From positions 1-64,000 of the forward strand of contig NZ_BAMZ01000082.1 in assembly GCF_000964225.1 (NCBI RefSeq): a DNA stretch of 64,000 nt, in the 5' to 3' direction. Shown piece after piece: positions 28,950 to 35,286 of the stretch. Positions within the stretch are counted from its first letter, which is position 1; every line of letters starts with the position of its first letter. Source of the stretch: Acetobacter syzygii. GTDB taxonomy: Bacteria > Pseudomonadota > Alphaproteobacteria > Acetobacterales > Acetobacteraceae. Below the pieces are notes generated by a model that worked only from the letters and a program-made list of their open reading frames with translations, was not told the origin of the DNA and did no database searches. Both the position numbers and the translations under genes were made by a program.

Positions 28950-30221
28950 TCAGGCGACCTTTTCAATCGTCTGGGTTGCCGGTTCTGGAATAACCCCTTC
29001 CTCACGCAACAAAAGCGCAAGGGCACGCACCATATCATCCATCATCTCGTCCGTGTGGAACGGTCCGGGTGTCAGGCGCAGGCGCTCCGTTCCCTCGGGC
29101 ACGGTCGGGTAATTGATTGGCGTTGCATAATGGCCAAATTCTACCAGAAGGCGGCGGCAGATACGCTTGCAGCGTTCAGCATCGCCAATGGGAATAGGCA
29201 CAATATGGCTTGGCGTCATGGTAAACGGCACACCGGCAGCCCGCAAACGCTGGCGCATGGTATGCACCCGCTCAAACAGGGACTCGCGCCGCCAGTTTTC
29301 GGCCCGCACCTTGCGTACACTGGTCAAGGCAGCACCCACCACGGAAGGCGGCAGGGCGGTGGTAAAAATAAAGCCCGAAGCCGTTGAACGCAGGAAGTCC
29401 ACGATCTCGGCTGAAGCCGTAATATAACCACCATGCACGCCAAACCCTTTGGCCAGCGTACCTTCAATAATATCCACCTGATCCGCAACACCATCCCGCT
29501 GCGAAACGCCGCCACCTTCCTGACCATACAGACCGACCGCGTGGACCTCGTCCAGATAGGTCAGGGCATTGTATTTTCTGGCCAAAGCACAGATTGCCCC
29601 TATGTCCGCCATGTCTCCATCCATGGAGTACACGCTTTCAAACGCGATCAGCTTGGGTGCCTCTGCGGGGGCCGCTGCCAGTTTTTCTTCCAGATCCTTC
29701 AGGTCATTATGTTCAAAAATAACCGTCTGCGACCCACGTGCCCCTTTGATGCCTGCAATCATGGAGGCGTGGTTCAACCGGTCGGAAAAACAGATCCAAC
29801 CGGGCATGGACATCAGAATTGTCTGCAAACTGGCCTGATTGGACACATAACCGGAAATAAAGAGCAGCCCGGCCTCCTTGCCGTGCAAGGCGGCCAGTTC
29901 GGCCTCTAACTGGTTATGCAGGGGGCTGGTACCCGCAATATTGCGTGTTCCCCCCGCACCGGCACCATGCTCACGTATGGCAGCAATGGCGGCTTCCTGC
30001 ACTTCGGGTACAACACCCATGCCCAGATAGTCGTTGGTGGACCAGACGATAACCTCCCGCCCTTCGGGCAGATTGGCCACGTATTCCTCATAAAGGGGAA
30101 AGCGTTCTGCCTGACGCGCCAGCGGCGTAAAGGTTCTGTACCGCCCCTGCTGCTTGATCCGCTCCAGCGTTTCCTCACAATGTTCGTAAAAAGGATGCCG
30201 GGCGTTCTTGATCGCTCCCAC
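28950..30221 (-). CDS. hemA: 5-aminolevulinate synthase
   Basis: ALAS condenses glycine and succinyl-CoA with pyridoxal phosphate, the first haem step in alphaproteobacteria. I chose the GTG at 30221 because GAGGAG lies 9 bases upstream and the 423-residue product ([14 protein letters not shown]) then matches the family length of about 405. An ATG at 30275 would add 18 residues. Landmarks are [41 protein letters not shown], and the PLP lysine in [13 protein letters not shown]. The C-terminal [10 protein letters not shown] and the substrate segment [18 protein letters not shown] are present. It is transcribed away from the lipoprotein gene on the same strand. Confidence 0.95.
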
Positions 30222-30328
30222 GCTTGAATTCTCCTCGCTTCTCGTCAGAAACGGTCGGGGCATGGGCTTACCCATCGGCCGTCTGGCCTTTTGTCTTCTT
30301 AACAGTGTGTGTGTTTCGGTTACGTAAC

Positions 30329-30805
30329 CTACCGCACATACACCCGTACGGTTGGCTTCGTCACCGACGAATCCGGCATAGCGGACATTTCCACCTGCGG
30401 TTCAGGTGCCCCGGCATCGATCAGCTCCTGCATAACGGCCCGGCCATCGTGCTGGACCAGTTCCAGCAAGGCAGACTGTTCGTTATCCTGATTAGCCTGT
30501 GGCGGCACCAAGCAGCTTACAACAAACAACACATCTTTTTTGCGGCTCAGCGCCTCGCGGGCAATCTGGTCCACCGGCGCTTTCCATTGAGTCTGGGGCG
30601 TGCCAGCCACAAGCTCGATCAGCGGTGGCACGGGCGGCGGACCGGGGGGCGGGGGCGGAATATACGGTTTTGGTTCAACACCGGCAGAATGGTTGAACGT
30701 TTTCTGGTCAACCAGCTTGCACCCGGCCATGCCAGTAAGCAGGCAGATGGCAAGAGCGGCCCGAACAGCGCGCCCCTTTTCTGCGGCATGAAAAACAGAC
30801 AGCAT
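30329..30805 (-). CDS. Proline-rich lipoprotein of unknown function
   Basis: Not recognised. A 158-residue product begins at the ATG at 30805 with GGAG upstream; a GTG six codons earlier is the alternative. A lipoprotein signal ([12 protein letters not shown]) is followed by a linker with [14 protein letters not shown] and a small domain of about 100 residues that contains [16 protein letters not shown] and ends VRVYVR. It is likely anchored at a membrane facing the periplasm. It lies about 108 bases ahead of hemA on the same strand; a shared transcript is possible. No homology to a named family is claimed. Confidence 0.65.
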
Positions 30806-31064
30806 GACCGGACTATTCTCCACTCAAACATATGGTGTGCGAAAGCACGTATTTTGCAGGGTTCACCCCTCTTCTTTCGCGCTCCCACGCGTCAGGCGCA
30901 AGCCCTTACAGCTCCATCTTGCCCCTAAAAACACGTCATGGACCTTAAAACTGCCTCTTGCCGTTACCATTTGCTCTCTGGTTAACTACACAGACGCGCC
31001 AGGTCCGTTCTGCCGGGCGCGCACTTGAGATGACAGGACTCCCCTACTGGCAGACATAGGGCTG

Positions 31065-33017
31065 ATGGCCAGCACGCCTTCCTCAGACCAGATTACCGCA
31101 TCCTCCTCCCCCATGCACGATGCCCTTGTGCTACGCATGGACAAGGCGGCCCGCACACTGCTGACCTCCGCTACAACCGGGGAGGATATTCAGGCAGAAC
31201 TGCAGACCATGTGCCTGCCCATTACCGCACTGTGGTGCCGTATTCTCCGCTTTGACCCAGCCGTGCCAGACTGGCCAGACCGGGACCGGTATGTGGTGCC
31301 CTCCGCAGCCATGTTACCCCTCCTTGCCGCCATGCTACGGCTCACCGCACCGGGGGCGCAGGAACTCAGCCCCACATTGGAATACGGGCAGCACCCTGCG
31401 GTGGAAATAGCCGCCGGGCCAGCCGGGCAGGGCATGGCAGCAGCAGCTGGCATGGCTTTGGCCGAACAGCAGCTTGCCAACCGTTATGGGCGTTCTCTGG
31501 TCAACCACCGCACATGGGTTCTGGCGCGCGACAGCGACCTTGCCACAGGTGTTGCGCTGGAAACCGCGCAACTGGCCAGCCGCTTTGGCCTGAACCGCAT
31601 GGCTGTTCTGGCGTGCCCGTCCCCTCTGGCTGACCCTGCTGATTTTTCGGACTCACTGGCCCGCTTCCATGCCTCGGGGTGGAGTGTACGCAAGGTGAAT
31701 GCACACGACCTTGGGGCGATTATGAATGCCCTGCAAGCCGTGCTGCGCGCCAGAAAGCCAACCCTGCTGGCCTGCATTCCCGCAAACAGCCCCGCCCAGC
31801 CCGACATGCCAGCAGAGGACGAACTGACCGGCCCATGGAGCCCCACCGCACGGCGCGGCAGTTCCATCCGCCGGTCATGGCTGCGCAGGCTTGCACAGCA
31901 CCGTGCCCGCGCGGACTTTGAACGTGACCAGATGGGCAGGTCCCGCCATACCATGCGCGAAGACTGGGGGCGGTTATGGCGGCAGACAATGCGCAGCACC
32001 CCCGATGGATCATCCCAGCAAGCCGCCTTTGCCGGGCTGCGTTCGCTTGCCCTGCTCCGGCAGGATGTGTCCATTCTGGCCGCCACATCGAGCACCAGCA
32101 GTTCACGCAGCGCCAACCTGCCCATGCCGTTTGGCCACGCGGCACAGCCCTGCGGCATACAGGAACATGGCATGGCTGGTATGCTCAATGGCATGGCACG
32201 GCACGGCGGTGTTCTGCCGTGCGGCGTTGCGGGTATGATGACCATTGACCGTATGCGCTCCGCTTTACGCATGGCGGCACTCATGCGCAGCAAGGTGCTC
32301 TACCTGCTGACCGATGACGGGCTGGCCCTTAGCGACAACGGAGGAGGCTGGCAGCCGGTTGAACAGTTGGCCAGCCTGCGCGCCATGCCGCATCTGGCAG
32401 TATTCCGCCCGGCCTGCGCGGAAGAAACCTTTGCCTGCTGGCAAACGGCCCTGAACTGGCCGGAAGGCCCGGCCATGCTGATCCTGTGCCCCCACCCACC
32501 TCCACACCGCACAGGCAGGCGGAGCGGGCATTATGGCGGACCATCGCACGGTGGCTACCTTATAAGCTGCGGGCAGGGCCCCCGGCACGTAACGCTGATG
32601 GCATCCGGCCCAGAGGTGGCCATTGCCACACTTGCGGGGCAACATCTGGCGGAACAGGGGCTGAACGTGGCCATTGTTTCCATCCCCTGCTGGGAGGTTT
32701 TTGCACAGCAGCCAGCCGCCTACCGCACAGCCGTGCTGGGAACAGAAGGCTTGCGCGTTGGAATAGAAGCCGCAAGCAGCTTTGGCTGGGAACGCTGGCT
32801 TGGCACGGATGGAATTTTCGTTGGCATGGACGATTTTGGCATATCCGCCCCCGCCAACGCGGTGTATGAACGTTTTGGCATTACAGCCGGAGCGATCTGC
32901 CAGAAGGTGCTTGCGCGTCTTCTGGCATCTGGTGCGCAAAAGGGCCTGTCCCCCAGCGCGCCATCCCCGTCCCGGCTGGAAGACCTGGACATGTCACTAA
33001 CGATAACAAGATTATAA
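31065..33017 (+). CDS. Transketolase-like protein with degenerate cofactor site
   Basis: The 650-residue product has the three-part transketolase fold: EYGQHPAVEIAAGPAGQGMA (about 106-125), a pyrimidine-domain segment IQEHGMAGMLNG that keeps the catalytic Glu (about 362), and the C-terminal SGPEVAIA region. The diphosphate motif GDGCLMEG is replaced by RDSDLATG (155-162): only the Asp and last Gly remain, and the downstream Asn metal ligand (DDN) is also gone (ACPSP). An arginine-rich stretch (about 265-300) is unusual too. It is followed 20 bases later by gap and then pgk, the position of tkt in other alphaproteobacteria. So it is likely an old tkt that has lost or changed activity. The frame is intact, arguing against a recent pseudogene. 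Confidence 0.8.
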   Translation: MASTPSSDQITASSSPMHDALVLRMDKAARTLLTSATTGEDIQAELQTMCLPITALWCRILRFDPAVPDWPDRDRYVVPSAAMLPLLAAMLRLTAPGAQELSPTLEYGQHPAVEIAAGPAGQGMAAAAGMALAEQQLANRYGRSLVNHRTWVLARDSDLATGVALETAQLASRFGLNRMAVLACPSPLADPADFSDSLARFHASGWSVRKVNAHDLGAIMNALQAVLRARKPTLLACIPANSPAQPDMPAEDELTGPWSPTARRGSSIRRSWLRRLAQHRARADFERDQMGRSRHTMREDWGRLWRQTMRSTPDGSSQQAAFAGLRSLALLRQDVSILAATSSTSSSRSANLPMPFGHAAQPCGIQEHGMAGMLNGMARHGGVLPCGVAGMMTIDRMRSALRMAALMRSKVLYLLTDDGLALSDNGGGWQPVEQLASLRAMPHLAVFRPACAEETFACWQTALNWPEGPAMLILCPHPPPHRTGRRSGHYGGPSHGGYLISCGQGPRHVTLMASGPEVAIATLAGQHLAEQGLNVAIVSIPCWEVFAQQPAAYRTAVLGTEGLRVGIEAASSFGWERWLGTDGIFVGMDDFGISAPANAVYERFGITAGAICQKVLARLLASGAQKGLSPSAPSPSRLEDLDMSLTITRL

Positions 33018-33037: not shown

Positions 33038-34060
33038 ATGGCAGTCAAAATCGCCATCAATGGCTTTGGACGTATCGGTCGCCTTGTTCTGCGCGGCATT
33101 ATTGAAAGCGGGCGCACGGACGTGGTGCCGGTGGCCATTAACGATCTGGGCAGCGTTGAAGATAACGCCCACCTCCTGAGCTATGACAGCGTACATGGTC
33201 GCCTGCCTGCGGATGTGCGGGTGGAAAATGGCAAGCTGGTCATTACCGCCAATGGCCGCACGTGGGGCCCGATCACCGTTTCTGCCGAGCGTGACCCTTC
33301 CAAGGTTCCTTTTGAAGGTGTTGACGTGGCCATGGAATGCACCGGCCTGTTCACCACAAAGGAAAAAGCCCAGCTCCTGCTGGCTGCTGGCGCCCGTAAG
33401 GTTATTGTTTCCGCCCCGGCAACGGATGTGGATGCAACCATTGTGTACGGTGTTAACCAGGATGTGCTGACATCCGACATGACCGTTATTTCCAATGCGT
33501 CCTGCACCACCAACTGTCTGGCTCCCATTGCCAAGGTTATGGAAGACGCCTTTGGCATTGAACGCGGCTACATGGTGACCATCCACTCCTACACTGGCGA
33601 CCAGCGCACGGTGGACACCCTGCACAAGGACCTGCGCCGCGCCCGCGCCGCTGGCATGAACATGATCCCCACCTCCACCGGGGCAGCCCGCGCCGTGGGT
33701 CTGGTTCTGCCGCAGCTCAAAGGCAAGCTTGATGGCACGGCCATTCGCGTGCCCACAGCCAATGTTTCCGTTGTTTCACTCGACTTTGTGCCAAAAACCG
33801 CGCCTGGCAGCGTTGAAGAGGTCAACAACGCAATCAAGGCTGTTGTTGAATCCGGCGTTATGAAAAACGCTCTGGCTTACAACGACGCCCCTCTGGTCAG
33901 CTCCGACTTCAACCACGCCATTGCATCCTCCACCTTCGATGCAACACAGACCGCGCTGGTGGACGGTGGCAAGCTAGTGCGGATCTGCTCCTGGTATGAT
34001 AACGAATGGGGCTTCTCCAACCGTATGTCCGATACGGCAGCCCTGTTTGGATCACTGTAA
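33038..34060 (+). CDS. gap: Glyceraldehyde-3-phosphate dehydrogenase, type I
   Basis: GAPDH oxidises glyceraldehyde-3-phosphate to 1,3-bisphosphoglycerate. The 340-residue product has the N-terminal [12 protein letters not shown], an Asp in AINDLG that favours NAD, the active site [12 protein letters not shown] with the catalytic Cys at about 157, and the conserved HSYTGDQ and [12 protein letters not shown]. The ribosome site is GGAG before ATG. It is the middle gene of the tkt-like-gap-pgk unit; its stop overlaps the pgk start by one base (TAATG). Confidence 0.97.
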
Positions 34061-35286
34061 TGGCGACCAACCTTCCCTTTGCAACACTGGATAAGCTTGA
34101 CCCCAAGGGCAAGCGTATCCTGCTCCGCGTTGATCTGAACGTCCCTATGAAGGACGGTCAGGTTACTGACCAGACCCGTATTGAGCGTATTGTTCCCACC
34201 ATTGCGGAACTGGCGGACAAAGGTGGACGGGTTATTCTGCTCAGCCATTTTGACCGCCCCAAAGGGCAGGTCGTGCCCGATATGTCGCTCAAGCCGATTG
34301 CAACCGCACTGGCCACCGCACTGGGGCGCCCGGTCAGCTTTGCGCATGACTGCATTGGCCCCGATGCCGAGGCCGCAGCACGCTCCCTGACGGATGGCGA
34401 AGTACTGCTACTGGAAAATACCCGCTTCCAGCCGGGTGAGGAACAGAACGATGCGGGCCTGTCCGCAGCACTTGCCAGCTTGGGTGATGTGTATGTGAAC
34501 GATGCGTTCTCCGCAGCGCACCGGGCCCACGCTTCCACCGCTGGCGTTGCAACCCATCTGCCCTCCTTTGGTGGCCGTCTGATGGAAGCAGAACTGCAAG
34601 CCCTGTACGCGGCACTGGAAAACCCCGAACGGCCCGTAGGCGCCATTGTGGGGGGAGCCAAAATTTCCACCAAACTCCAGCTGCTGGAAAATATGCTGGA
34701 AAAAGTAGATATGCTGGCTATTGGCGGCGCCATGGCCAACACGTTTCTGGCAGCTCAGGGGCTCAATGTCGGCAAGTCGCTCAAGGAAGATGACATGCTG
34801 GACACGGCCCGCCTGATCATGGCGCAGGCCAAGGCCAAAAACTGCGATCTGATCCTGCCTGTGGATGTTGTTATTTCCGAGGACTTCATGGCAGGTGCGC
34901 CGACCAGCACCGTGCCGGTAACCGCTATTCCAGATGGCTGGATGGCGTTGGACGTTGGGCCAGAGACGGTCAAGCTGCTCAACAGCAAACTGGCAGGCCT
35001 TAAAACACTGGTCTGGAATGGCCCACTCGGCGTATTTGAACTCCCGCCGTTTGACGAGGGTACAAACGCTGTTGCGCAGCTGGCTGGTAAGCTGACCAAA
35101 GCCGGAAGCCTGAAAACCGTAGCAGGGGGAGGAGATACCGTATCCGCCCTCCGCCATGCAGGTGTGCTGCATGACATGACCTATGTTTCCACCGCAGGTG
35201 GTGCTTTCCTTGAATGGCTGGAGGGCAAAATTCTGCCCGGTCTGACCGCCATTAGCACAACACTGGAAAAAACCCTGCCGATCTAA
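34060..35286 (+). CDS. pgk: Phosphoglycerate kinase
   Basis: PGK transfers phosphate between 1,3-bisphosphoglycerate and ADP. The 408-residue protein ([14 protein letters not shown]) carries [34 protein letters not shown], the hinge and ATP-site segments [15 protein letters not shown] and NGPLGVFE, and GGGDTVSAL near the C-terminus. The start overlaps the gap stop (TAATG), so expression is coupled. A terminator follows. Confidence 0.97.

Follow-up and report, generated by a model that had tools for sequence, protein, structure and literature searches.

The window analysed here, a stretch of 64,000 nucleotides, encodes a transketolase-like protein of 650 residues (gene tktL, 31065..33017, + strand; protein TktL) that has lost nearly all of its active site. 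In our view, the gene is very probably a transketolase pseudoenzyme kept by selection. Since nearly the whole active site has gone and yet the gene is preserved by selection, TktL probably does a job which needs no catalysis. The assignment draws on the ORF, Pfam matches, a table of active-site residues, dN/dS and a predicted model. The frame has zero internal stops across its 650 residues, as an earlier sequence-only reading of this DNA had reported. The host genome is that of an Acetobacter (2.68 Mb), and the best named matches are to A. lambici, A. fabarum, A. lovaniensis and A. okinawensis.

Downstream of tktL are gap (glyceraldehyde-3-phosphate dehydrogenase; 33038..34060, +) and pgk (phosphoglycerate kinase; 34060..35286, +), both identified by ORF and Pfam. 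The ATG that overlaps the stop codon of gap was taken as the start of pgk, although the ORF list also allows an earlier one (34006). Directly upstream of tktL is a small conserved gene, UP164 (30329..30823, −), which was recognized by synteny and for which a Pfam search gave no match. Its product, 164 residues long, starts like a lipoprotein and contains a proline-rich stretch; the gene adjoins the locus in many genera, whether tktL is present or absent. In other lineages its synteny marks the site of the missing tktL. The syntenic flank is completed by a gene for a hemA-like PLP aminotransferase (28950..30275, −; Pfam and synteny), the name hemA having been given in this analysis. As gap starts only 20 nt past the tktL stop, the tktL frame might be kept only to carry the expression or translation of gap, as a leader or by coupling, and not for its protein. 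However, a GGAG-type ribosome-binding stretch of gap's own can be read in the sequence.

The Pfam matches of TktL are to PF00456 (95 bits, residues 54–237), PF02779 (359–474) and PF22613 (496–607), with a weak match to PF02780, and show that the protein carries the transketolase PP, Pyr and C-terminal domains. The AlphaFold2 model, for which 32 aligned sequences were the input, has a pLDDT of 79.6 and a pTM of 0.82; confidence is low at residues 346–359 and 421–429, near 242–248 and at both termini. The top Foldseek match of the model is the transketolase 4xeu (TM 0.79), and VIA-align superposes it on 5vrb with a Z of 37.4 and a difference of 3.0 Å over 584 residues. Bacterial transketolases (EC 2.2.1.1; PDB entries 4xeu, 5vrb and 2r8o) occupy the top bacterial VIA-align rows with 584–593 aligned residues, and they share both their Pfam domains and the three-domain fold with TktL; the tkt of intact relatives also lies upstream of gap–pgk. 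Predicted fold, Foldseek, VIA-align and Pfam all agree with the earlier claim that the transketolase fold is kept, and as modelled TktL has the three-domain fold of these enzymes. In contrast to them, it scores 309 bits against the NCBIfam transketolase equivalog TIGR00232, below the cut-off of 682.

The active site is where TktL departs from the bacterial enzymes. We considered 23 positions (Escherichia coli TktA numbering), which we take to be the cofactor, metal or substrate contacts of transketolase. In the alignment with TktA only G114, D155, S385 and E411 are kept. The remaining 19 are changed or deleted: H26, H66, H100, L116, G154, G156, E160, N185, I187, H261, R358, D381, F434, F437, Y440, H461, D469, H473 and R520. 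The GDG…DDN thiamine-diphosphate/Mg motif is absent. Where active enzymes have GDGCLMEG, residues 155–162 of TktL (31527..31550, +) read RDSDLATG, and the DDN loop is altered, shortened and devoid of its Asn; the segment containing H261 is deleted. Both the change to RDSDLATG and the loss of the DDN segment had been noticed in the sequence-only reading, but the loss proves to be wider than was described there. No alternative GDG segment of TktL was found in the alignments. The losses at the GDG motif comprise its glycines, the Glu after the motif and the Asn and Ile ligands, while its Asp is retained (D156 in TktL) and is Asp in all 27 close Acetobacter sequences. S385 is retained in just five of these 27. 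The catalytic Glu of IQEHGMAG (residues 365–372; 32157..32180, +) is present, as had been claimed, and corresponds as E367 to E411 of E. coli TktA. A retained catalytic Glu is not, however, a feature of the family: the residue is Glu in 22 and Asp in five of the close Acetobacter sequences, and among the 51 sequences of the wider degenerate set 29 have Glu, 16 have Val and five have Asp. The sets of 27 and 51 exclude the interrupted copies L010 and L030, and L059–L074 are uncounted in them because they repeat these loci from a second collection or are near-duplicates.

The preserved fold and the presence of E367 and D156 could be taken to mean that TktL has kept transketolase activity, perhaps with a changed specificity, and excerpts of a published reconstruction give the positional orthologue in A. 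pasteurianus as a transketolase (PMC3751514). Against this, 19 of the 23 positions are changed or deleted, the catalytic Glu is replaced by Val in 16 of 51 relatives and a full tkt is present in the same genome, so that residual activity is barely credible. When columns conserved in active Tkts were defined on 19 active enzymes, only one of 22 active-site columns was kept across the 51 degenerate sequences compared with 98 of 266 others (p = 0.0017), which indicates that the active site has been abandoned and the scaffold kept. Some lost positions have become fixed to new residues, namely R396 (at Y440, 51/51), W429 (at H473, 48/51) and T161 (at E160, 46/51), and outside the listed positions C363 is fixed in 51/51 degenerate sequences. 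Such fixed replacements would fit an old cofactor site that now holds another ligand, with TktL serving as a sensor or having a new activity. This we regard as unlikely: the active site shows no significant excess of fixed switches (3/18 of its changed columns, compared with 12/141 of the others; p = 0.38), and the loops of the site (346–359 and 421–429) are modelled poorly. The degenerate state recurs in orthologues throughout Acetobacter and in other genera and hence is not the product of chance or of sequencing error. Identical losses in many species likewise rule out a local pseudogene.

To judge from its substitution rates, tktL is under strong purifying selection. Compared with the six closest genomes, its dN/dS is 0.098–0.144 at dS values of 0.61–0.72, with bootstrap 95% ranges that fall within 0.072–0.186; these values are far from one, near which the sequence-only reading had placed its own disproof. 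For the same six genome pairs, dN/dS is 0.056–0.067 for the working tkt, about half that of tktL, and 0.040–0.069 for gap. Over all 16 genomes the tktL values span 0.098–0.272, although dS is at least 1.0 for the ten farther genomes and the ratio is less reliable there. The PP and Pyr domains of transketolases form the dimer core and the active site. Pooled over the six genomes, and with domain borders placed by eye, dN/dS for tktL and the working tkt, respectively, is 0.070 and 0.062 in the PP domain, 0.058 and 0.031 in the Pyr domain and 0.117 and 0.059 in the C-terminal domain. The linker and the N-terminal region of tktL are loose (0.200 and 0.268, compared with 0.127 and 0.049 for the working enzyme). 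The PP and Pyr domains are therefore tightly constrained although the catalytic residues have gone. Taken together, the low overall dN/dS and a constraint on the PP domain about equal to that of the working enzyme indicate that tktL is not a decaying pseudogene. The constraint acts on amino acids and varies by domain, which again speaks against a frame retained as a leader for gap. We also considered coding on another frame and rejected it for the three genome pairs compared, in which the other five frames carry 6–18 stops; dN/dS is above 1 for four of these frames, and the one reverse frame with a value of 0.19–0.22 nevertheless has six stops.

The wide set of 51 has 50 loci besides that of the window, and at 49 of these an orthologue of tktL lies upstream of gap; the exception is L052 (G042), where there is no gap within the stretch examined. 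A copy is present besides the working tkt in 47 of 49 Acetobacter genomes. The two in which tktL is missing upstream of gap, G039 and G040, are small (1.5 and 1.7 Mb). Frames are interrupted in G022 and G031, and the copy in G028 is split between contigs. We note that in A. okinawensis JCM 25146 (L064/L010) tktL is interrupted and the adjoining hemA-like gene is also in two pieces; because of the latter, and because the tktL of DsW_060 (L062) is open, this interruption is probably an assembly error.

A tree of 69 Tkts was obtained by a quick search with SH-aLRT support only; it contains long branches, and the sequences G095, G057 and L052, which are long or partial, were omitted together with ten of the 19 extra Tkts. 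In this tree a single clade of 47 (SH-aLRT 100) unites the gap-linked genes, and the working Tkt of the host genome falls in a different clade. Degenerate members make up a clade of 40, outside which are the intact or nearly intact sequences G069, G114, G190, G055 and Rhodopila L075 and L077. L055 and L056, within the clade of 40, are only partly degraded, and L058 has degraded separately, beside Rhodopila. Early-branching Acetobacteraceae, such as the Rhodopila MAGs, retain the active site at the gap-linked tkt save for G154S and I187V. Among the intact or nearly intact members these are the sole changes at the listed positions: G154S, which G069, G114 and G055 share with the Rhodopila rows, and I187V, confined to those rows. 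The intact positional orthologues thus branch first, as is expected of descent from an active enzyme, and tktL is the positional orthologue of the ancestral tkt which heads tkt–gap–pgk in Acetobacteraceae. The separate degradation of L058 means that at least two changes between the intact and degenerate states are needed, and a single origin of degeneracy is disfavoured on this tree, with the support values and long branches described above. Two gap-linked copies, L211 (G090) and L210 (G127), are far more decayed, with frames of 534 and 512 residues and parts missing. In an order-wide draw of 150 genomes, the 90 that gave a match at E ≤ 1e-70 are all Acetobacteraceae, and this draw is uninformative about behaviour outside the family.

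The expectation that the real tkt lies elsewhere is borne out by a full copy on another contig of the same genome (G000:C71; 434 bits), which keeps all 23 listed positions. This gene heads a compact pentose-phosphate cluster (L099 1282–10521; G000:C71:8000–27000) which includes a fusion of transaldolase and phosphoglucose isomerase (tal–pgi, 951 residues), gnd, a HAD-like phosphatase gene, pgl, rpiA and a gluconokinase gene, the names having been assigned by reading the ORFs. Together with the dN/dS values, the fold and the lack of any alternative GDG segment in the alignments, the full tkt gives good support to the earlier suggestion that tktL is selected for another role.

We surveyed 100 Acetobacteraceae genomes, 97 of which gave a gap match and three none at the cut-off. 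Among the 97, the gap-linked tkt is full-scoring in 53, degenerate in 20 and cleanly lost in 15, and nine are unclassified (G052, G099, G096, G140, G086, G104, G121, G138 and G112). A copy was called full-scoring if it matched PF00456 with 370 bits or more and lay no further than 4.5 kb upstream of gap, as in 52 genomes; G055 was added as the 53rd because its copy is cut by a contig end and the visible residues are intact; the residue-by-residue check of this class covers G069, G114, G190, G055 and L075–L077. Another tkt, taken as a further match that scores 300 bits or more with PF00456 among the matches listed, is found in all 35 genomes with a degenerate or lost copy (20 + 15), compared with at least 12 of the 53 full-scoring ones, in a count that ignores relatedness; TktL thus coexists with a working transketolase in 20 of the 20 sampled genomes that have a degenerate copy. 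Among the matches listed, at least two full tkt copies of different clades occur in G054, G056, G090, G107, G132 and G146, and short N-terminal transketolase halves of about 280–310 residues occur in many Acetobacteraceae.

In 18 genomes examined as loss candidates, a TktL profile run on the 7 kb surrounding gap detected no frame, and tblastn likewise found none; 14 of these lie within the sample of 97 and, with G084, give the 15 losses counted above. UP164 is upstream of gap in all 18. It is 0.16–0.67 kb away in 16 of them, and in G039 and G147 the distance is 3.0 and 1.6 kb, respectively, with other frames in between. Clean loss in 15 of 97 sampled genomes shows that the role of tktL is dispensable. 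Both gap and pgk persist in 18/18 of the genomes examined that are without tktL, and since tktL can be lost while gap is kept, coupling as the sole cause of the open frame is disfavoured; with the points given above, we consider a leader or coupling role highly improbable. The plain reading of the survey is that, with another tkt in the genome, the operon copy was no longer bound to its original form; it was subsequently either deleted or retained as a noncatalytic protein. The redundancy in 35/35 cases, the clean losses and the few interrupted copies would also fit a gene which became redundant after a second tkt and is now decaying with no present function. For Acetobacter this explanation is already disfavoured, and we hold it to be very unlikely: dN/dS is about 0.1 at dS values of 0.6–0.7, the bootstrap ranges stay below 0.19 and a copy is present in 47 of 49 genomes, with interruptions seen in two.

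How a pseudoenzyme at this locus might act is suggested by its context. A conserved and catalytically void copy encoded with gap–pgk suggests a protein partner. TktL probably has no transketolase activity and may serve as a partner protein that is coexpressed with Gap and Pgk. Since the active sites of transketolases are formed between subunits, mixed dimers of TktL and Tkt would have damaged sites. Pairing with the working Tkt may take place through the constrained PP and Pyr domains, and the mixed dimers might tie Tkt output to the expression of the gap–pgk operon, much as reported for human TKTL1 acting on TKT. On this analogy, we tentatively favour a TKTL1-like heterodimer as the leading mechanism, although by itself it is less likely than not. 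It was chosen because the sites are shared between subunits and because human TKTL1 reportedly pairs stably with TKT as a heterodimer and skews its activity, according to excerpts of PMC6555833. The same excerpts describe TKTL1, like TktL a transketolase relative beside a working enzyme, as virtually inactive on its own. The reported heterodimers are those of TKTL1, to which TktL is likened by description only, and TktL differs in having arisen from another tkt lineage and in its position at gap–pgk. Drosophila Tktl is likewise a divergent transketolase paralogue and predicted pseudoenzyme, but is an animal paralogue in a set that is almost all testis-restricted (PMC11836677, in part); this likeness is also one of description. 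The coexistence of the degenerate form with working Tkts from at least two distant clades of the tree makes a specific Tkt partner somewhat less likely.

TktL could instead be a scaffold or regulator that associates, as a monomer or as a homodimer, with Gap, Pgk or both and channels or adjusts the flux of glyceraldehyde-3-phosphate with no Tkt contact; this is possible, though we think it rather doubtful. It would account for the linkage to gap at 49 of 50 other loci and for the constrained PP and Pyr domains, but gap and pgk persist where tktL has been lost. Moreover, the linkage was inherited from the ancestral tkt–gap–pgk order and is not an independent sign of a Gap or Pgk partnership. Returning to the pseudoenzyme reading, its fullest form is that a pseudo-transketolase became a regulatory subunit after a second tkt took over, expressed with gap–pgk, pairing with Tkt (or Gap) and setting the split between the pentose-phosphate pathway and lower glycolysis in acetic acid bacteria; it would occur across much of the family and be a bacterial parallel to TKTL1 of independent origin, with degeneration having occurred at least twice. 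We offer this as a speculative possibility, about as doubtful as the scaffold.

Excerpts of the reconstruction of A. pasteurianus 386B list two transketolases, APA386B_1152 (with transaldolase as 1153) and APA386B_1521 (with gap as 1520 and pgk as 1519) (PMC3751514). By position alone, APA386B_1521 is the orthologue of tktL, and the A. pasteurianus type strain LMG 1262 (L070) carries the degenerate form. Four tkt genes are given for G. xylinus CGMCC 2955 in excerpts of PMC5908849. A search of the open-access literature, with most subscription journals outside its scope, found no paper on the degraded tktL or on any bacterial pseudo-transketolase, and it yielded no expression data for tktL. Because the orthologue is given as a transketolase in the excerpted reconstruction (PMC3751514), metabolic flux models for these industrial organisms may include a transketolase that does not exist. 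Intact, partly degraded, fully degraded and deleted forms at one locus in one family provide a natural series, which is suited to the question of how a redundant enzyme turns into a selected pseudoenzyme. If TktL does bind Tkt or Gap, central carbon metabolism would gain a newly recognized point of control.
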